Assembly: GCF_000236685.1 (NCBI RefSeq)
Contig: NC_016633.1
Coordinates: 2,604,001 to 2,668,000 of the forward strand
Direction of reading: 5' to 3'
Origin: Sphaerochaeta pleomorpha str. Grapes
Lineage (GTDB): Bacteria; Spirochaetota; Spirochaetia; Sphaerochaetales; Sphaerochaetaceae
DNA: 64,000 nucleotides
The notes beneath the pieces are model-generated. The model ran no database searches. It had not been told where the DNA came from and worked only from the letters and a program-made list of their open reading frames with translations. The position numbers were made by a program, and so were the translations under genes. Positions 13,314 to 21,925 of this stretch are shown here, piece by piece (the first letter of the stretch is position 1; every line of letters starts with the position of its first letter).

Positions 13314-13453
13314 TAGTATACCTTTCTTTCCTTATGAAAACTTCTCGTCTATGGTAAGCCCATGAGCCACAGGACAGGTTCAAGGCAACAAATCCGCTCA
13401 CTTTTCTACACGTTCGACAAATCGAAACTCTTGCAAGCCCTTCTTGGAACTCT

Positions 13454-13740
13454 TTACTTCATCTTCCTTTCAATCACCTTGAAATGAGTCTTCATGGAAA
13501 AGTTGCCAAAAGCAATAGCTTCGCCACTATTTTCTGTACGGCCTGTTCTTCCTATCCTGTGGATAAAAAAGTTAGGAGAACGAGGCAGTTCATAGTTTAT
13601 TACAGAAGGAAGGATATCGATAGCAATGCCTCTGTAGAGAGGATTGGTAGGAACCAACCCTCTCAATGTTCCCTCCTGAAAGATTGTAAGGAGATCTGCC
13701 TTGGCCTCGATATCATTTTTTTGTAATGTTTCTACAACCT
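13454..13740 (-). pseudogene. DEAD-box RNA helicase fragment
   Basis: Only the end of the helicase C-terminal domain remains, open from about 13740 to the stop at 13454. It reads ETLQKNDIEAKADLLTIFQE, then GTLRGLVPTNPLYRGIAIDI, VINYELPRSPNFFIHRIGRT and GRTENSGEAIAFG, which line up with motifs IV-VI of DEAD-box helicases (VINYDLP, HRIGRTGR). The canonical LVATDVAARGIDI has decayed to LVPTNPLYRGIAIDI. There is no start codon or N-terminal ATPase half. Further upstream on the same strand (13760-13890) a low-complexity stretch in interrupted frame could be the tail of another helicase copy. Confidence 0.8.
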
Positions 13741-14305
13741 TTCTACCTTTGCTTTACGGGCTCCCTTGGATCTGCTTTTTCATCTATCCCAATACCTAGG
13801 ATATCCCTGTTTCCCAGGATTGCTTCTGTTTGAATAGGAGAGGGGGTTGTTAGGTTTGCCTGCCCTAACGTAGTTGCAAGAGACGGCGAGATTCCCAAAG
13901 AACTAAATGAACTATGGACTTAATCCTTTTTCACTACTTATTTAACTTTATCTATCCATTGGGAATCATACGCTATTGCCTCTTGCTAGTACATAGGTGT
14001 TTTGATCATTGCAAGGTATGGGAAAAATCTTCTTGTAACTACCAGGGAAGTTTTATCCCGGCTGAGTCAAGTCTTTGGAATCTGGAATTCCTGAACAAAA
14101 ACAAATAAACAAGGCCATAGACTGTGGACTCTGCGAGTTTCAAAATTGGCACCCAATTTCTTCAAATGCTGTCAGTAATGCCCTTTTTTCACTGGTATTT
14201 CATACTAATATACAAGGCCTTCTCTCCATCGATATTCTGATAATAGGTAGCATATAAGAGCATAAATATTACTATAAAAAGAATTAGGAAAGGAAAAGAT
14301 TCTTG
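13741..14305. other. Intergenic region, mostly AT-rich
   Basis: No gene is supported. Apart from the possible helicase-tail relic at 13760-13890 (minus strand, broken by stops), short frames at 13914-14257 appear random. The right end leads into the TRAP operon promoter. Confidence 0.3.
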
Positions 14306-14373
14306 TTGACAAATGAAAAAATGGTGATACTATGAATTAAAAATTGTATCCAATGTCCAGTATCCACTGGATA
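14306..14373 (+). promoter_or_regulatory. Promoter and candidate GntR operators of the DctPQM operon
   Basis: TTGACA (14306-14311) and TACTAT (14328-14333) are 16 bp apart. Directly downstream are two dyads: ATTG-TATC-CAAT (14343-14354), close to the TTGTATACAA-type sites bound by many FadR/FCD GntR regulators, and TATCCA-C-TGGATA (14361-14373). Both lie where a repressor would block initiation. The GntR/FCD gene at the end of this gene cluster is the likely binder; this is inference. Confidence 0.55.
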
Positions 14374-14398
14374 AAAATTGGGGAAAAAAGGAGAACAC

Positions 14399-15496
14399 AT
14401 GAAAAAGAAGGGTTTTGCTGTTCTGGTTCTTTTGCTTTGTGCGCTAGCACTATTTGCAAATGGATCATCTGAAACCGGTGGAGAGGGAAAGAAGAAGATT
14501 ACCTTGAGAATAGGTTCTGGTCACTCAACTTCAAATCCTTGGATCACTGCCTTGGAAGATTACTTCGTGAAAAATGTTTCTGAACGTGTTAAAAACGAAA
14601 CAAACTATGAAATCAACTGGGTAAAGAACTATGGTGGTTCTGTAATAACCCTTGGAAATGAATTGCAAGGCGTGCAAGATGGACTGGTTGACATCGGATG
14701 CACAATCCTCGTCTTTGAAGCCTCGCGGTTGCCTTTGGTTGACATGGTATATAGTATGCCGTTCTCATGTTCCGATCCTCTTATCGTTGCTGACGTAGTA
14801 AAGGCTATGTATAAAGAATACCCTGAGTTCACCACCGTATATGAAGAGAAGTTCAATCAGCATTATCTTGGTATTGGTGTATCTGATCCGTATGGATTCT
14901 TTTCCACCAAAGAAGTCAAATCTCTTGATGATGTTGCAGGAATGAAGATTGGTGCCGCAGGCATAAATCTTGCCTGGATTGAAGGTTCCGGTGCTGCAGG
15001 AGTTCAGACTTCATTAAATGATACGTACCAGAATTTGCAGACGAACGTTTGTCAGGCAACAATCCAGCCCACCCATTCTTGTATCAATTTGAAGGTTCCT
15101 GAAGTTGCTCCTTATTATTTGGATGCCAATTTCAATGTTGTTCCGTTCAACTCCGTTACCGTAAATAAGCAAACGTGGGATTCCCTTCCAAAGGAAGTTC
15201 AAACAATCTTGACCGAAGTTGGTGATGGATATCTTGATTATGAAGCAAAGTATATTAATTCAGTTCATGAAAAAGATCTGAGTGATGTCGTAAAGATGGG
15301 TGGGAAAGTAATTACTCTTTCAAGAGCAGAGCAAGTGAGATGGGCAGCATCTCTTCCCGATATTGTAAATGACTTGGTAAAGCGGTTGAATAATGCCGGA
15401 TTCAGAGGTTCTGAGATAGTTGAACGCTATTATCAGCTACTTGAAGAAAGAGGTGTTGAGCGTATCCGCAACTGGAACACTGCAAATACAAAATAA
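14399..15496 (+). CDS. TRAP transporter solute-binding protein, DctP type
   Basis: A 365-residue exported binding protein; the start at 14399 is chosen for its AAGGAG site and because it leaves a proper signal peptide (MKKKGFAVLVLLLCALALFA then NGSSETGG). The mature domain begins LRIGSGHSTSNPWITALEDY, the usual DctP entry for carboxylate-binding TRAP proteins, and has DDVAGMKIGAAGINLAWIEG in the second lobe. It hands solute to the DctQM membrane pair encoded next. Enzymes encoded downstream suggest a carboxylate carrying amide, lactone or hydroxy groups, but the ligand is not shown. A 10-bp hairpin follows the stop. Confidence 0.92.
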   Translation: MKKKGFAVLVLLLCALALFANGSSETGGEGKKKITLRIGSGHSTSNPWITALEDYFVKNVSERVKNETNYEINWVKNYGGSVITLGNELQGVQDGLVDIGCTILVFEASRLPLVDMVYSMPFSCSDPLIVADVVKAMYKEYPEFTTVYEEKFNQHYLGIGVSDPYGFFSTKEVKSLDDVAGMKIGAAGINLAWIEGSGAAGVQTSLNDTYQNLQTNVCQATIQPTHSCINLKVPEVAPYYLDANFNVVPFNSVTVNKQTWDSLPKEVQTILTEVGDGYLDYEAKYINSVHEKDLSDVVKMGGKVITLSRAEQVRWAASLPDIVNDLVKRLNNAGFRGSEIVERYYQLLEERGVERIRNWNTANTK

Positions 15497-15502
15497 AGAT
15501 GT

Positions 15503-15537
15503 GAAGTGGCTTTGTTCACTAAGGATGAAGCCACTTC
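15503..15537 (+). terminator. Intercistronic hairpin after dctP-type gene
   Basis: Perfect 10-bp arms GAAGTGGCTT / AAGCCACTTC with a 15-base loop, seven bases after the binding-protein stop. No T-run follows, so it is more likely an mRNA-stabilising or partial-attenuation hairpin that keeps binding-protein mRNA above permease mRNA. Confidence 0.65.
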
Positions 15538-15593
15538 TATATCCTTTGACTGAAGGAATGCAAGGTGTTTACTCATTGATTGGAGGGCAGTGT

Positions 15594-16127
15594 ATGGATG
15601 TGATACGGAAAATAAGTAAGGGATTTGAAAAGTTTCTATCATGGATGGATGGTATTGCATCAATCTCGATTGCTGTAATTATGGTGTTGATCACTGCTGA
15701 TGTGCTTAGCAGATTGCTGTTTAACAAACCTTTTGTTGGAACTGCCGAGATAGTGAGTAGCATTATCATCATTGTCTGTTTTTTGGAGATTCCCTACGTC
15801 TCGATGAGAAAAGGGCATGTCAGGACAACTGTCCTGTATGACATGGTAGGAAGAAAAGGGAAGGATATTATCGATATTGTTGCTTGTCTTCTTGGGATAG
15901 TTGCTTATGGATTAATAATTAAAGCAAGCTTTCCCGGTTTCTTGAATGCAATTGATATCAATGAGGCTGAAATTGCAGGATCTTTCCGAATTACAACGGT
16001 TCCAGGGAGATTTGCCATCATTTTCGGATCCGTATTGATGATATTGGAATTCCTGAATCAGATAATCAAGTACTCCTATGACCTTGTTACGGGAAAATCC
16101 AGTGAAGGTGAAGGAGGATCTAAATGA
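15594..16127 (+). CDS. TRAP transporter small permease, DctQ type
   Basis: A 177-residue protein with four membrane helices (about residues 15-37, 50-70, 88-108, 130-150), the DctQ layout. The start at 15594 has GGAGGG nine bases before it; the longer frame that overlaps the preceding gene and hairpin is not used. LITADVLSRLLFNKPFVGTAEIV is a typical DctQ segment. Its stop overlaps the ATG of the large permease (ATGA). It supports assembly and function of DctM. Confidence 0.9.
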   Translation: MDVIRKISKGFEKFLSWMDGIASISIAVIMVLITADVLSRLLFNKPFVGTAEIVSSIIIIVCFLEIPYVSMRKGHVRTTVLYDMVGRKGKDIIDIVACLLGIVAYGLIIKASFPGFLNAIDINEAEIAGSFRITTVPGRFAIIFGSVLMILEFLNQIIKYSYDLVTGKSSEGEGGSK

Positions 16128-17452
16128 GTCCAATTGTTATTGCGGTTTTCTCGTTGGCTTTGCTGTTGATCCTAATTTTCAGCGGAGTACATTTGAATAT
16201 CTCCTTGATGATTACCAGCTTTGCAACTGTTCTACTGTTTACCGGCAGGATTAATGTTGCAATGAATGTATTGTCCCAGTCTGCATGGGGTTCCGTTCGA
16301 CAATACATGTTTGGAGTAATCCCTCTGTTCGTTTTGATGGGGATGCTTGCAAATCTGTCAGGGGCCAGTAGTGATTTGTATGATGCAGCAGCGCTTATGC
16401 TGAAAAAAGTACGTGGCGGTGTAGGTATTGCTACCGTCATTGCGAATGCTATCTTTGCAGCCATTACCGGGGTTACCGTTGCTTCTGCTGCAATCTTTAC
16501 AAAAATTGCACTTCCTCAAATGAATAGATTGAAATATGAAAAGAAGTTCTCTTTGGGAACGATTGCAGGTTCTGCAATTTTGGGAATGTTGATTCCTCCC
16601 AGCTTGTTGATGATTGTATATGGATCTCAAGCTGATGTTTCCATTGGAAAGCTCTTCGTTGCGGCTATTGTTCCTGGGCTTATTATGACCTTTGCATTTA
16701 TTTTGGTTATAGCGGTCGTAGGAAAAGTAAAGCCTGAATATATTCCTGTGGTAGAAGAACTCTCTGAGTTTGAAAAAGAAAATTATTGGAAAATTGTACT
16801 GAAACCTTGGCCGATTATTATGTTGATTCTTGTTACCCTGGGAGGTATTTGGGGAGGCTTTTTTACTCCGACGGAGGCTGGCGGTATTGGTGCATTTGGT
16901 GCTTTTGTTTTGGTACTCTTTAAGAAGGGATTCAATAGAGAAGAGATTTGGGAGACTCTCTTATCAGCAGGAGCTACCTCAGGGAGTGTTTTAATCCTTC
17001 TCATTTCGGCTTCCACCTACTCAAAAACACTTTCAATGTGCGGAATTATTAATTCGATAAGCTTCTTTGTTGAAGGTCTTACCATTCCTCCTCTTGGTAT
17101 CATCCTGATTTTCATGTTCATACTCATGGTTCTTGGATGTATTCTTGACTCCACTTCAATCCTATTACTGACCACGCCACTGATGTGTCCCATCGTTCAG
17201 GATTTGGGCTATGACATGGTTTGGTTTGGAATCATCATGATTATTGCAATTGAGACTGGAATGGTTACTCCGCCGTTTGGCATGAATGTATTTACGGTTA
17301 AGTCCTCACTACAGGGAATTGAAGGGTATGAGGGTACTACGGTGAATGATATCTTCAAAGGATCGACATGGTATCTGATTGCAATTATTGCTGTTGATTT
17401 ACTGCTGGTTCTTGTGCCAGTTCTTGTTACCTATTTGCCAAACAATATGTAA
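16124..17452 (+). CDS. TRAP transporter large permease, DctM type
   Basis: A 442-residue protein with about twelve hydrophobic segments, the standard DctM length. Recognisable parts are GVIPLFVLMGMLANLSGAS, ITGVTVASAAIFTKIALPQM, LGTIAGSAILGMLIPPSLLM (as SAILGMLIPPSLLMIVYG) and the C-terminal IETGMVTPPFGMNVF. It carries the Na+-coupled translocation path. AAGGAGG precedes the ATG, which overlaps the DctQ stop by four bases. Confidence 0.93.
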   Translation: MSPIVIAVFSLALLLILIFSGVHLNISLMITSFATVLLFTGRINVAMNVLSQSAWGSVRQYMFGVIPLFVLMGMLANLSGASSDLYDAAALMLKKVRGGVGIATVIANAIFAAITGVTVASAAIFTKIALPQMNRLKYEKKFSLGTIAGSAILGMLIPPSLLMIVYGSQADVSIGKLFVAAIVPGLIMTFAFILVIAVVGKVKPEYIPVVEELSEFEKENYWKIVLKPWPIIMLILVTLGGIWGGFFTPTEAGGIGAFGAFVLVLFKKGFNREEIWETLLSAGATSGSVLILLISASTYSKTLSMCGIINSISFFVEGLTIPPLGIILIFMFILMVLGCILDSTSILLLTTPLMCPIVQDLGYDMVWFGIIMIIAIETGMVTPPFGMNVFTVKSSLQGIEGYEGTTVNDIFKGSTWYLIAIIAVDLLLVLVPVLVTYLPNNM

Positions 17453-17484
17453 ATAAAATTAATTCGTGAAAGGAGAAAAGTAAA

Positions 17485-18129
17485 ATGAGCGAAATTAGGA
17501 TCCCGATGGAAAAAACTGCAATTGTGTTGATTGAACCCCAGAATGATTTTTTGTCACACGGTGGAACGATGTTTGCACACATAAAAGAACAACTGGAGGA
17601 GAGAAACGTGATCGCCAATCTTCAGGATTTGCTTGCAAGTGCAAGAGGGAAGGTGGCAAAGATTTTCTACTGTCCGTTTCATCCGTTTGATGCTGGGTTC
17701 CCAGAGTTGAAGAAAGGTGGCCCTGCTTATGAAGGCCTTCGTGGAATAGAGATCGACATGGAAGCTGACTGGGGTACGGGTGCTTGGCTTCGGGGAACAC
17801 CTGGTCCGGAAATCATCAAGGAGTTGACCCCACAGCAAGGCGATGTTGTGGTGGAAGGAAAGAAAACACTAGATGCATTCCATTCAACCGGCTTGGACTA
17901 CTATCTGAGAGCCAATGAGATCGAGTATGTGGCGTTCACTGGTTTTCACACAGATTGGTGTGTTGAATCAACGGCAAGATCGGCCTATGACAAAGGATAT
18001 CGGGTTATCGTTATTGGCGATTGTACTGCCACTGATACACAAGAGGAACAGGATTTCTGTGAGAAATGGATATTCCCTAAGATTGGTAAAGTCATGAATT
18101 ACAAGGAATTTTTAAAGGCCTTGGTATAA
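17485..18129 (+). CDS. Isochorismatase-fold cysteine hydrolase
   Basis: A 214-residue cysteine hydrolase with the Asp-Lys-Cys triad in place: Asp21 in IEPQNDFLSHGG, Lys in VVEGKKTLDAF (126/127) and Cys159 in HTDWCVESTARSAYDKGY. The family includes N-carbamoylsarcosine amidase, biuret and ureidoacrylate hydrolases, maleamate amidohydrolase and nicotinamidase; GFHTDWCVESTAR fits the amidohydrolase side better than true isochorismatase. It lies 32 bases after the TRAP permease with its own AAAGGAG site, so it probably processes the imported compound by removing an amide or carbamoyl group. The exact reaction is unknown. Confidence 0.87.
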   Translation: MSEIRIPMEKTAIVLIEPQNDFLSHGGTMFAHIKEQLEERNVIANLQDLLASARGKVAKIFYCPFHPFDAGFPELKKGGPAYEGLRGIEIDMEADWGTGAWLRGTPGPEIIKELTPQQGDVVVEGKKTLDAFHSTGLDYYLRANEIEYVAFTGFHTDWCVESTARSAYDKGYRVIVIGDCTATDTQEEQDFCEKWIFPKIGKVMNYKEFLKALV

Positions 18130-18166
18130 TTTTCATGCTCTGCTCGTAAATTTCTCGTATTGGTAG

Positions 18167-18223
18167 ATCAAGGGTTAGGTCAATGGAACATTTTATACGG
18201 ATGCTATCGTACCAACCCTTGAT
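18167..18223 (+). other. Long-range intergenic hairpin
   Basis: Arms ATCAAGGGTTAGGT (18167-18180) and ACCAACCCTTGAT (18211-18223) pair over 13 bp with a single bulged A; the loop is 30 bases. No T-run follows. It sits in the only sizeable gap (176 bases) of the gene group and may be a processing or attenuation site. Confidence 0.5.
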
Positions 18224-18305
18224 TTACATACATAGTTTACAGGTAACTATGGTTCCAAAAAACTGAGATCACACAAATATATTGGGACAACTTGGGAGAA
18301 GGTAA

Positions 18306-19106
18306 GTGAATAATGTAAGAATTAGGCCGATGAACACAGGCTTTGTAACAATGATTCCTAGCTTGTATCTGTATCATCATTCCGCCATCAAGTATTATCC
18401 GAATGCATCAAATAAAGAGGAAGATTTTCCAGTTTTCACCTATCTGATTGAGGGTGGCGAAAAGTTGGTCCTTGTTGACACCGGTATGGCTGACACAAAA
18501 CGAGCAGATACATACCATCATCCAGGCTCATATCAACCAAAAGGAATGTCCATCGTAGAGCAGCTCGATACAATTGGATATAAACCCACTGATATTGATA
18601 TAGTTGTATTTACGCATCTTCATTGGGATCATTGCTTCTATATGGAAAAATTTACCAATGCACAATTTATCGTGCATAAAAAAGAATATGAATTTGCCAT
18701 GAACCCAATTCCTCTCTATTACAAATCATATGAGGCACCTGAATTGGGAATCGTCAGACCTTTTGAAGGTATTCAGATGACTTTGGTAGAAGGTGAGACA
18801 GAGATAATCCCGAACGTTCGGGTTTTTGAAACCCCAGGTCATTCAGTTGGCCATCAAGCAGTTGAGGTAGATACCAATACGGGTACCTATATCATCTGTG
18901 GTGATGCCATCTTTATCCTGGATAACCTGAAACCGATTCCGCAGATTCATTACAACATTACGCCTCCTAATAGATATGCAGATATCGTTGAAACCTGGCA
19001 TAGCATTGAGAAGATCAAAAATCGGGCACAGAGTGAAGATAGAATCTTGACGTGTCATGACAGATCAATGCTGGAACGTGTGAAAGATACACCTGTGCTT
19101 GGTTGA
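18306..19106 (+). CDS. MBL-fold hydrolase, N-acyl-homoserine-lactonase-like
   Basis: A 266-residue metallo-beta-lactamase-fold protein with HLHWDH at residues 104-109 inside VVFTHLHWDHCFYMEKF, TPGHSVGHQAVEV (second His) and CGDAIFILDN (bridging Asp). This is the pattern of the AHL-lactonase/4-pyridoxolactonase branch, which opens lactone rings. No signal peptide. Start is GTG at 18306 with AGAAGG just upstream; a nearby ATG is out of frame. In this cluster it is more likely a catabolic lactonase than a quorum quencher, which is inference from neighbours. Confidence 0.85.
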   Translation: MNNVRIRPMNTGFVTMIPSLYLYHHSAIKYYPNASNKEEDFPVFTYLIEGGEKLVLVDTGMADTKRADTYHHPGSYQPKGMSIVEQLDTIGYKPTDIDIVVFTHLHWDHCFYMEKFTNAQFIVHKKEYEFAMNPIPLYYKSYEAPELGIVRPFEGIQMTLVEGETEIIPNVRVFETPGHSVGHQAVEVDTNTGTYIICGDAIFILDNLKPIPQIHYNITPPNRYADIVETWHSIEKIKNRAQSEDRILTCHDRSMLERVKDTPVLG

Positions 19107-19128
19107 TTGCATAATAAGGAGGTTGTTT

Positions 19129-20370
19129 GTGACCATTATTGCTGTCATTGCTAGTTTTGATACAAAATATCATGAAGTAGCATATGTCCAACAACAAATT
19201 GAAGAACTTGGATGTACACCATTCCTAATAGACATTAGTACTGGGCCGAACCCTCCGTTGATTGCGATTACCGCAGATATCCCGAGAGATGATGTTCTCA
19301 GGATGGGAGGATCTTCTTGGGAGACCATCAAAAAATTGGATAAAGGCAATGCAATCAAATCTATGTCTGATTGTGTTTCCAAAGTGATATATACCTTGCA
19401 TAGCGAGCGAAAGATTGATGGTGTCTTGGGTATGGGCGGATTGCAGAACACTATTATATGTTCAGCGGCTTTACGCCAGCTTCCCCTTGGGTTTCCAAAA
19501 TTCATTTGTTCGACTATTGCTAGTGGTAACCGATATTTTGATACTGTTGTTGGAGATAAGGATATTACGGTAATGCCTTCCATTGTCGATTTCGCCGGCA
19601 TTAATCCGATCAGTGAAGTCGTCTTGGCAAATTCTGTGGCAAGTGTAGTAGGAATGGTAAAATATGGAAAGCACGAAATTGATACGCATGGAAAGCACTA
19701 TATAGGTGCAACTTTGATGGGCATCACAAATGATACAGTTATGCGTGCAATAAACAATTTGACTGTAAAAGGGGAAAATGTTATCAGCTTCCATTCCACC
19801 GGTATAGGGGGAAGGGTACTTGATTCACAGATTCGAGATGGCAACATTGCGGCAGTAATGGATCTATGCTTGCATGAAATGACAGCGGAATATTTTGGAG
19901 GCCTTGGATACAGCAAAGGAGCTAACAATCGTTTGCTTGCTGCTGCAGAGATGGGAATCCCCAGTCTCATTTGCCCAGGGGGAATAGACTTTGCCTGTCT
20001 GAGCAAAGAAGATTTTTTTGACGATGAAGACAAACGGGGTTTTGTATGGCATTCCAAGGATTATCTAACGCATACAAGGCTTTGGGAAAGTGAAATCCTC
20101 GATATCACAAGAACAATTATTCAAAGAGTCAATTGCGCAAAAGGGATAACAGAGATTGTGTTGCCTCTTGGTGGACTGAGAACGATGAGCAGACCAGGGG
20201 AGTTTTTCTTCAAACCAGATACTATCAAGAAAATGAAAGTGATTTTCGATGAAGAATTAAAACCTGAAATAGTGTGTAAAGCTTTTGATTTGAATTTTGA
20301 TGATCCGGATTTTGCAGATATTTGTGCTAACGAAATGCTGGCTCTTCTAGAAAAGGGGGGACTACGATGA
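19129..20370 (+). CDS. Tm-1-like ATP-binding (UPF0261 family) protein
   Basis: A 413-residue protein of the UPF0261/Tm-1 N-terminal family, named for the tomato Tm-1 virus-resistance protein. It opens TIIAVIASFDTKYHEVAYVQ and has IDGVLGMGGLQNTIICSAAL, ATLMGITNDTVMRAIN, ENVISFHSTGIGGRVLDSQI and PGGIDFACLSKEDF, all conserved in this family, whose bacterial members bind ATP but lack a firmly assigned reaction. Start is GTG at 19129 because AAGGAGG lies seven bases before it; a TTG ten codons earlier is inside the previous gene. Its stop overlaps the aldolase ATG by four bases, so the two proteins probably act together. Confidence 0.88.
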   Translation: MTIIAVIASFDTKYHEVAYVQQQIEELGCTPFLIDISTGPNPPLIAITADIPRDDVLRMGGSSWETIKKLDKGNAIKSMSDCVSKVIYTLHSERKIDGVLGMGGLQNTIICSAALRQLPLGFPKFICSTIASGNRYFDTVVGDKDITVMPSIVDFAGINPISEVVLANSVASVVGMVKYGKHEIDTHGKHYIGATLMGITNDTVMRAINNLTVKGENVISFHSTGIGGRVLDSQIRDGNIAAVMDLCLHEMTAEYFGGLGYSKGANNRLLAAAEMGIPSLICPGGIDFACLSKEDFFDDEDKRGFVWHSKDYLTHTRLWESEILDITRTIIQRVNCAKGITEIVLPLGGLRTMSRPGEFFFKPDTIKKMKVIFDEELKPEIVCKAFDLNFDDPDFADICANEMLALLEKGGLR

Positions 20371-20987
20371 TGGAAATCATCTCTCAGTATGCCGACCTTG
20401 TTGATTCTCTTATCCTTGCGGCAAGAAAAATGTATTCGTTCCGTTATGAAATGAGTGATGGCGGTAATCTGAGTATGCGAGTACCTGGGAAAGATTGGAT
20501 GATCGTGAAAGGTACAAATGTTGCTTTCGATGAAATAGCCATTTCATCATTGGTAGTCACCGATTTTGAAGGGAATGTCATTGAAGGTAGCTGCAAGCCA
20601 TCAAAAGAGTCTTTGCTTCATGGGGTACTATACAGTGCTTTGCCGCATGTCAATGCAATTATGCATTGTCACTCACCCTATGCCACAGCATGGGCATCTG
20701 ATCATGATTCCCTTGCATTTTCAACGCATCATGCGCGGGAGAAATTGAACTTTTGCCCTGTGGTCGATACCCACTCATATGTTGTTCCCCGAGAATATTT
20801 CACGACGATTGTAAATCTGTTTCAAGAGAACGAAAACCTGAAATCTTTTATTCTGAGGGGTCATGGCCAAGTGACGGTAGGAAAGACGATGAGAGAGGCA
20901 GTGTATCTTGCAGAATTAGTAGAAGAGACGGCACAGATATCGGTGCTCTCCCAAGCTATGAAATATCACGATGAGAAAGGTTTTTAG
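20367..20987 (+). CDS. Class II aldolase/adducin-family protein
   Basis: A 206-residue zinc-dependent class II aldolase, related to L-fuculose-1-phosphate aldolase and L-ribulose-5-phosphate 4-epimerase. Metal ligands are visible in IMHCHSPYATAWA (two His) and ILRGHGQVTVG (third His). The substrate-phosphate region is present as DGGNLSMRV and SLVVTDFEGNV, and the glutamate in KPSKESLLHGVLY is near the expected catalytic acid. Its ATG overlaps the UPF0261 stop, as in several operons where a class II aldolase-like protein cleaves a C-C bond or decarboxylates a hydroxyacid after a preceding kinase or ATP-binding protein. The substrate remains open. Confidence 0.87.
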   Translation: MMEIISQYADLVDSLILAARKMYSFRYEMSDGGNLSMRVPGKDWMIVKGTNVAFDEIAISSLVVTDFEGNVIEGSCKPSKESLLHGVLYSALPHVNAIMHCHSPYATAWASDHDSLAFSTHHAREKLNFCPVVDTHSYVVPREYFTTIVNLFQENENLKSFILRGHGQVTVGKTMREAVYLAELVEETAQISVLSQAMKYHDEKGF

Positions 20988-21262
20988 TAATTTATAAAGA
21001 TGCGTCCTTTGTGGTTGTTTTGCTGAAACTTCTTTACATATTTAAAGTTATGCAGATTTACAGTATGTAAGTGACTTGTTATAATACCTCTATGTTTCTG
21101 ATGGCTTTTTATCAGTAGTGAATGTATTCTCTGCAGGTTATTCTGAGGAATTAAGACATTGATTATTTGGAGAAAACTATATTGGATACGAGATGTAGAA
21201 AATTGTTTTCTGATTGTTAGAGCTGAAGAGATATATCTTTCATGAAATACGGAGTATGAATA

Positions 21263-21925
21263 TTGAGTATGAACCATCAAAAGATCCAACCCACGACAGT
21301 TGCTGATTCTGTCTACCTTCGGATAAAAAATGCAATCATAATTGGTGAATTGAAAGCAGGAGAACATCTTGTCCAGGAGGAGTTCACGAAGGATCTTGGC
21401 GTGAGCCGTACTCCCGTAAGGGATGCTTTCAGAAGACTCGAGTCAGAGGGGCTTGTGGTAAATAGACCATATTATGGTGCTACGGTATTTATGCCATCAA
21501 AAGAACAAGTCCTTGAGATATATGAAATCAGAATACTCATTGAACAATATTGTGCTTCGAGAACCAGTAAAGTAGCTACTGATGACGAACTGAAAACTCT
21601 AAAAAGTATTAACGACAGGATGGCGGAGGTTTCCCCTTCATCAAAAGAGTACATGCAACTTGATTTTGAGTTTCACAAGCATATCGGTGAGCTTTCCGGT
21701 TGTACAAAATCGACATTGGAAATTCTGGAAGGCCTCCTGAATAAAAGTAGCAGTTTCAAATCAATATACTATTCTATGGTCGGTGGATCGCAAGCAACCA
21801 TCGCCATGCATTCTGATATCGTTGAGGCTTTATTCAATCGGGATGAAGAAGCAGTGAAAAAGGCCATAGCCGATCATCTAAACCATGTTCTCAATAGGGT
21901 CATTTCATCAAATATTCTCGTGTGA
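21263..21925 (+). CDS. GntR-family regulator with FCD ligand domain
   Basis: A 220-residue FadR-subfamily repressor. The winged helix spans about residues 10-75 (SVYLRIKNAIIIGELKAGEH, FTKDLGVSRTPVRDAFRRLE, LVVNRPYYGATV). The C-terminal FCD domain carries metal ligands: Asp/His in DFEFHKHIGELSG, His in AMHSDIVEALF and His in AIADHLNHVL. FCD domains bind small carboxylates, fitting control of the carboxylate TRAP operon. I use the TTG at 21263 because GGAG is eight bases upstream; an ATG at 21269 is the alternative. It lies 275 bases after the aldolase and has its own terminator, so it may be separately transcribed. Confidence 0.9.
   Translation: MSMNHQKIQPTTVADSVYLRIKNAIIIGELKAGEHLVQEEFTKDLGVSRTPVRDAFRRLESEGLVVNRPYYGATVFMPSKEQVLEIYEIRILIEQYCASRTSKVATDDELKTLKSINDRMAEVSPSSKEYMQLDFEFHKHIGELSGCTKSTLEILEGLLNKSSSFKSIYYSMVGGSQATIAMHSDIVEALFNRDEEAVKKAIADHLNHVLNRVISSNILV

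Follow-up and report, generated by a model that had tools for sequence, protein, structure and literature searches.

Several bacterial pathways for acid sugars pair a kinase with a member of the class II aldolase family. In the threonate and erythronate pathways the kinase is OtnK, a DUF1537 protein, and the class II aldolase-family decarboxylase is OtnC. The D-apiose and isoapionate pathways use a DUF1537 kinase and dehydrogenases. They also involve RuBisCO-like proteins, according to a passage of PMC6302742 that cites Carter et al. (2018). In Novosphingobium aromaticivorans, acetovanillone catabolism begins with the single-component kinase MarK (a passage of PMC13101465, citing Hall et al. 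2025). The subject here is an eight-gene operon of Sphaerochaeta pleomorpha str. Grapes (phylum Spirochaetota; closed genome of 3.59 Mb). It lies at 14306-21925 in a 64,000-nucleotide stretch of NC_016633.1 (positions 2,604,001 to 2,668,000), called the window below. All eight genes are on the + strand: dctP, dctQ and dctM, encoding a TRAP importer, followed by genes for an isochorismatase-fold cysteine hydrolase (CHase), an MBL-fold lactonase-like hydrolase (MBL), a UPF0261 protein, a class II aldolase and a GntR/FCD regulator.

The chances seem about even that this is a horizontally acquired, GntR-controlled operon for the uptake of a neutral lactone or amide, its deblocking, ring opening, phosphorylation and C-C cleavage. 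By analogy, its logic matches that of acid-sugar pathways already known, in which a kinase is combined with a decarboxylase of the class II aldolase family; here UPF0261 is the probable kinase. As in the OtnK/OtnC pathways, the operon places a putative kinase gene beside a gene of the zinc class II aldolase family. The window operon differs from them in that the kinase role would fall to UPF0261, entry would be through a lactonase and a cysteine hydrolase, there is no dehydrogenase among its genes, and no equivalog model is passed; none of its eight proteins matches the DUF1537 family in Pfam. With the D-apiose/isoapionate pathways it may have in common the idea of decarboxylating a phosphorylated oxo-acid. 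RuBisCO-like proteins occur in sister clusters as well, whereas the window operon has none. What is seen directly is the gene content, the conservation of the unit, a shared upstream motif, the active-site residues and the loss of the TRAP arginine.

Conservation and layout of the eight-gene set

A search with the UPF0261 protein led to nine loci. Where the organism is named, all belong to Lachnospiraceae or other Clostridia. The full eight-gene set is present in eight of the nine (L002-L008 and L010), and a ninth full set was found later (L030). Recurrence of the whole set in nine further genomes puts the grouping far beyond chance. Judged from this conservation, the eight genes form a real catabolic unit, which is apparently co-regulated. 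The sequence-only reading, an earlier annotation of the window, had proposed one linked functional unit, and this is borne out by the co-occurrence of all eight genes in nine Lachnospiraceae/Clostridia loci, most of them with an operator-like motif. It had also staked its pathway on the enzymes not being mostly apart in related genomes. For the full set this holds, as the genes stand together in nine loci, but MBL-UPF0261-aldolase is a core that also occurs apart from the rest.

In most full-set loci the order is MBL-UPF0261-aldolase, then GntR on the opposite strand, then dctPQM-CHase. L008 has the window-like order dctPQM-CHase-MBL-UPF0261-aldolase. CHase is the most conserved member of the set: it is 86-90% identical between the window and its relatives, while the means for the other genes are 53-75% (DctQ is 67-73% identical in most relatives). 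In each full-set genome tested, CHase is present at this locus only, L010 having a broken copy. In L010 (10001-16494) there are frame breaks in UPF0261, dctM and CHase, which may reflect a decayed cluster or sequencing errors. Glycerate kinase genes adjoin the clusters in three loci (L007, L008 and L030).

Close relatives of S. pleomorpha lack these genes. UPF0261 is found in one of 26 genomes of the genus (absent from 25 relatives) and CHase in one of 296 genomes of the phylum Spirochaetota (absent from 295 others), so the operon, on this distribution, appears to have been acquired horizontally. Among plasmid records, the best CHase matches are in Rhizobium, about 43% identical and without a comparable cluster, and MBL has no match at 1e-30.

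The features of the operon are as follows.

14306..14333, + strand: promoter-like site, TTGACA, 16 nt, TACTAT (10/12 consensus matches)
14344..14366, + strand: probable GntR operator TTGTATCCAATGTCCAGTATCCA, just 3' of the -10 box, an exact fit to TTGTATCCAATRTCCRGTRTCCA
14399..15496, + strand: DctP, TRAP solute receptor, with Gly185 where the carboxylate-binding Arg is canonical
15503..15537, + strand: stem-loop of 15 pairs between dctP and dctQ, a probable transcript-end or mRNA-stabilising hairpin
15597..16127 (start approximate), + strand: DctQ, small membrane subunit (Pfam)
16124..17452, + strand: DctM, large membrane subunit (Pfam; above the TIGR00786 dctM cut-off)
17485..18129, + strand: CHase, Glu17-Lys126-Cys159 (Pfam, alignment)
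18163..18226 (limits approximate), + strand: strong stem-loop between CHase and MBL (the entire spacer, 18130-18305, has z = -3.3)
18306..19106, + strand: MBL, a probable lactonase from the branch of AiiA and 4-pyridoxolactonase (THLHWDH, H179, D200, H251)
19129..20370, + strand: UPF0261 (Tm-1-like), probable kinase (Pfam, alignment, model comparison)
20367..20987, + strand: class II (zinc) aldolase family (Glu81, His100, His102, His166)
21181..21189, - strand: GTATCCAAT half site upstream of gntR (motif match)
21263..21925, + strand: GntR/FCD regulator (Pfam GntR plus FCD)

Pfam confirms the family of every one of the eight genes, and their order and strand are as first described. So is the four-base overlap of UPF0261 and aldolase (20367-20370). 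The start position first given, 14306, coincides with the first base of the TTGACA box. UPF0261 probably starts at GTG 19129 rather than at TTG 19099. The hairpin at 15503-15537, directly 3' of dctP, is of a type able to raise receptor over permease mRNA. Hairpins in the CHase-MBL spacer (18130-18305) may be an attenuator or the scar of a gene rearrangement. A decayed DEAD-box RNA helicase gene, interrupted by stops and frame breaks, lies immediately 5' of the operon (13400-13990, - strand); its Q-motif region and HRIGRTGRTENSGEAIAFGNF can still be read.

Receptor and enzymes

The three TRAP subunits are found together (DctP PF03480, 3.5e-29; DctQ PF04290, 3.3e-20; DctM PF06808, 3.8e-85). The main TRAP arginine is kept in about 96.8% of the family and restricts ligands to carboxylates (PMC4646407). 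In the operon DctP the residue equivalent to this arginine (SiaP Arg147) is Gly185, and it is Gly in all nine aligned sequences (KIGAAG), so the mark of a carboxylate-specific receptor is absent. The five best PDB homologues have Arg at the same position or one residue off in the alignment. Of the 12 DctP paralogues in the same genome, at least 11 carry the Arg as judged by motif; the motif gives no assignment for L053. A second arginine, in the preceding segment ('G.R.F.T' in several paralogues), is likewise replaced. Since this lineage is without the arginine that confers carboxylate specificity, its ligand is likely to be something other than a plain carboxylate, and a lactone or amide would fit.

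The UPF0261 protein has both domains of its family (N and C; Pfam 6e-54 and 8.8e-56). Its AlphaFold model (mean pLDDT 82.5) matches Tm-1 with Z 34 and PDB 9mpy with Z 29; in both cases the overall rmsd is high, about 12, because of how the domains are arranged. No DUF1537 kinase is among the fold matches listed for the model. 9mpy is Saro_1862, a UPF0261 domain protein of N. aromaticivorans, solved with bound acetovanillone. MarK, the kinase known from the same organism for this compound, is presumably Saro_1862. Because the homologue binds acetovanillone and this kinase is known in the same organism, UPF0261 of the window is, by analogy, most likely a kinase. The two proteins have the same two-domain architecture, 26-27% identity and the common motifs DTK, ST.ASG, FHS.G.GG and PG..DF. 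They differ in context: 9mpy has an aromatic hydroxyketone as ligand, while the window protein adjoins a lactonase and an aldolase, and its relatives are mostly from gut anaerobes.

The earlier statement that UPF0261 proteins have no established bacterial reaction is therefore out of date, as far as the passage of PMC13101465 on MarK and the 9mpy structure go, while the suggested ATP-dependent activation gains support from a family member that binds and, if it is MarK, phosphorylates acetovanillone. A literature search on UPF0261, COG5441 and PF09370 found no paper on a bacterial function. In the plasmid records examined, bacterial UPF0261 proteins are paired with a PEP-hydrolase-like TIM barrel, and Tm-1 is found in plants. 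All share the UPF0261 domains, and ABC importers lie near several of the bacterial ones. The window operon differs from these pairs in having a class II aldolase in place of the PEP-hydrolase partner. On a plasmid of Thermomicrobium roseum (L013, 7992-17158), UPF0261 and PEP-hydrolase lie beside PEP/pyruvate-binding and PEP-utilising genes, possibly like two-component phenylethanone kinases.

CHase belongs to the isochorismatase family (PF00857, 5.4e-37). Its nearest relatives among characterised solved proteins are the amidases biuret hydrolase and RutB, with which, as with the uncharacterised 3kl2, it shares the fold and the Lys and Cys of the triad. The enzyme had been described as a D-K-C hydrolase. 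Lys126 and Cys159 are indeed kept, but where the '(V/I)D.Q' motif has its canonical Asp, all nine aligned sequences have Glu17. The strict Asp-Lys-Cys triad is thus absent, and Glu for the catalytic Asp sets CHase apart from biuret hydrolase and RutB. Among the PDB relatives listed, the same Glu is found only in 3kl2.

MBL (Lactamase_B, PF00753, 4.5e-22) has the HxHxDH metal motif, with H104, H106, D108 and H109 invariant in 13 sequences. It is nearest to AiiA and 4-pyridoxolactonase, although the NCBIfam equivalog cut-offs are not reached (102 of 375 bits for AiiA, 95 of 325 for 4-pyridoxolactonase and 82 of 390 for AttM). The aldolase (Aldolase_II, PF00596, 3.4e-37) has the zinc class II residues Glu81, His100, His102 and His166, unchanged across 12 sequences. 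At the position of Glu81, fuculose-1-phosphate aldolases also have Glu, and ribulose-5-phosphate 4-epimerase has Asp. Because Glu81 matches the Glu of FucA and not the epimerase Asp, cleavage or decarboxylation is the more likely activity on alignment, rather than epimerisation.

Separable core and shared motif

MBL, UPF0261 and aldolase are found without CHase or TRAP genes nearby in five other Bacillota loci (L031, L038, L039, L040 and L041). Ribose-type ABC import genes lie near the core in L031, L038, L040 and L041, as read from translations (the L038 receptor is confirmed). L031, L038 and L040 encode a RuBisCO-like protein that matches the MtnW model best and those of RuBisCO III and OiaX more weakly; these proteins are MtnW-like, with scores well below the cut-offs, including that of OiaX. 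Homologues of TpiA (L031, L038) and of RpiB (L038) are confirmed, and reading the sequences of L039 and L040 gives further TpiA/RpiB-type homologues. That sister clusters combine the core with sugar ABC importers, RuBisCO-like proteins and TpiA/RpiB points to sugar-acid phosphates. In L038 (4111-15241) and L040 (35-9759), the RuBisCO-like gene stands with UPF0261, lactonase, class II aldolase, TpiA-/RpiB-like and ribose-type ABC importer genes. L060 has MBL, RpiB, TpiA and aldolase, with no UPF0261 nearby.

Another arrangement is found in L009 (4487-11841), where TctC, TctB, TctA and a sulfatase-family enzyme stand directly 5' of MBL-UPF0261-aldolase, all in one tight operon, with the sulfatase where CHase would be. 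No CHase was found in a search of the L009 genome, and in several relatives no deblocking enzyme of the CHase type was seen beside the core. Judged from L009 and the five Bacillota loci, MBL-UPF0261-aldolase is a separable core, with an exchangeable importer and deblocking enzyme (CHase or sulfatase). CHase itself looks like a replaceable deblocking step outside the core, since L009 has the sulfatase without CHase and several relatives carry the core without such an enzyme.

The pattern TTGTATCCAATRTCCRGTRTCCA has an exact match in the window at 14344-14366 and also upstream of dctP in L003, L004, L005, L007, L010 and L030. Near-identical motifs are found in L002 and L006, and the pattern has no match in shuffled windows. 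Its inverted type, TTGGACACTGGATACAAT, is found upstream of MBL in L002-L007, L010 and L030. As the motif lies upstream of dctP and, inverted, of MBL, both Lachnospiraceae transcription units seem to belong to a single regulon, and from synteny GntR is the putative binder of the motif. Promoter-like matches such as TTGACA-16-TACTAT are, taken alone, at chance level in this region; a similar promoter layout lies 5' of the operator in Lachnospiraceae loci. Of the five copies of the 9-mer GTATCCAAT in the window, three lie outside the operon. In the whole genome, the 11-mer TTGTATCCAAT has three sites against one for the reversed control, which does not support a wider regulon.

Proposed route and alternatives

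In the proposed route, DctPQM would import a small, probably uncharged compound, a lactone and/or amide with no free carboxylate bound in the standard TRAP fashion. CHase would remove a blocking group in the cytoplasm, cutting an amide, carbamoyl, or comparable acyl or enol bond, and MBL would open the lactone to a hydroxy- or oxo-acid. UPF0261, as a kinase, would phosphorylate this acid, and the zinc class II aldolase would cleave the phosphorylated acid (retro-aldol) or decarboxylate it, feeding a triose or ketose phosphate into central metabolism. GntR would act as a repressor on TTGTATCCAAT-type sites as long as neither the substrate nor an intermediate is present. Each reaction, the reaction order, the link between regulator and motif, and the substrate class are drawn from families, residues and neighbourhoods. 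Several points weigh against this route. None of the four enzymes (CHase, MBL, UPF0261 and aldolase) reaches an NCBIfam equivalog cut-off. UPF0261 in the plasmid records examined adjoins the PEP-hydrolase-like TIM barrel and no aldolase, and MarK is equated with Saro_1862 from organism, ligand and date. Other basic residues of DctP could bind the ligand, so that loss of the Arg alone is no proof of an uncharged ligand, and the AlphaFold model of DctP (mean pLDDT 45) is too poor for pocket inspection.

A more specific form of the route, which is possible but doubtful, has a 3-oxo gamma-lactone (tetronic-acid or ascorbate-like) as substrate. CHase, or the sulfatase in L009, would first strip a substituent, MBL would then give a 3-oxo acid, and after phosphorylation by UPF0261 the aldolase would decarboxylate it as in the 3-oxo-tetronate 4-phosphate step, yielding dihydroxyacetone phosphate or erythrulose/xylulose phosphate. 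The lack of a dehydrogenase in the operon is as expected for entry at the oxo level, the loss of the carboxylate arginine from the receptor suits a lactone, and sister clusters have TpiA, RpiB and a RuBisCO-like protein with a distant likeness to MtnW and OiaX. The NCBIfam model of 3-oxo-tetronate 4-phosphate decarboxylase is among the aldolase matches at 76.8 bits, but its cut-off is 250 and ribulose-phosphate epimerase-like models score higher. Furthermore, no RuBisCO-like protein is seen in the CHase-type loci, and we know of no CHase acting on compounds of this type. The sequence-only reading had an N-acylated or lactonised carboxylate entering through a normal TRAP receptor, followed by amide removal, ring opening, activation and aldol cleavage. 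While the enzyme families are all present and CHase has amidases as its nearest characterised solved proteins, carboxylate uptake is disfavoured by a DctP lineage without the TRAP arginine (PMC4646407) and CHase is dispensable to the core, making the scheme as a whole unlikely. Its later steps, ring opening, activation by UPF0261 and class II aldolase cleavage, remain the most plausible reading, strengthened by the acetovanillone-binding UPF0261.

UPF0261 might instead be a nucleotide-dependent ligase or a non-catalytic partner, with the aldolase acting alone. UDP-GlcNAc 2-epimerases and glycosyltransferases come next after the UPF0261 family in likeness to the model, Tm-1 is known as a viral replication inhibitor and not as an enzyme (PMC5028733), and L060 has MBL and aldolase with no UPF0261 nearby. 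However, the family motifs are kept, a bacterial homologue is solved with a hydroxyketone ligand, and the passage on MarK places a single-component kinase for that ligand in the same organism, so that a role other than kinase is rather improbable. Quorum quenching, in which MBL would open N-acyl-homoserine lactones and CHase would cleave the amide so that the operon feeds on or silences signals, draws on AiiA being the best NCBIfam match of MBL (102 bits). It was set aside as highly improbable, since that score is far under the cut-off of 375, the MBL of sister clusters goes with sugar importers and sugar-phosphate isomerases, and the kinase and aldolase would be idle.

Each enzyme family of the proposed route is known, but the combination is new in that no description of this pathway was found; it would be a variant of the kinase plus class II aldolase pathways for acid sugars. 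Tentatively, and at rather less than even chances, the operon may represent a route for an unrecognised neutral amide or lactone nutrient, with an Arg-less TRAP receptor, a Glu-triad CHase of new specificity, UPF0261 as a new family of acid-sugar kinases working with a class II aldolase, and a core with exchangeable import and deblocking genes. It offers a compact, testable setting for assigning the UPF0261 reaction outside aromatic catabolism, in a family that includes the tomato antiviral protein Tm-1. The DctP lineage would be a receptor breaking the rule that TRAP importers bind carboxylates, and the operon points to a nutrient common to gut Lachnospiraceae and a spirochaete.

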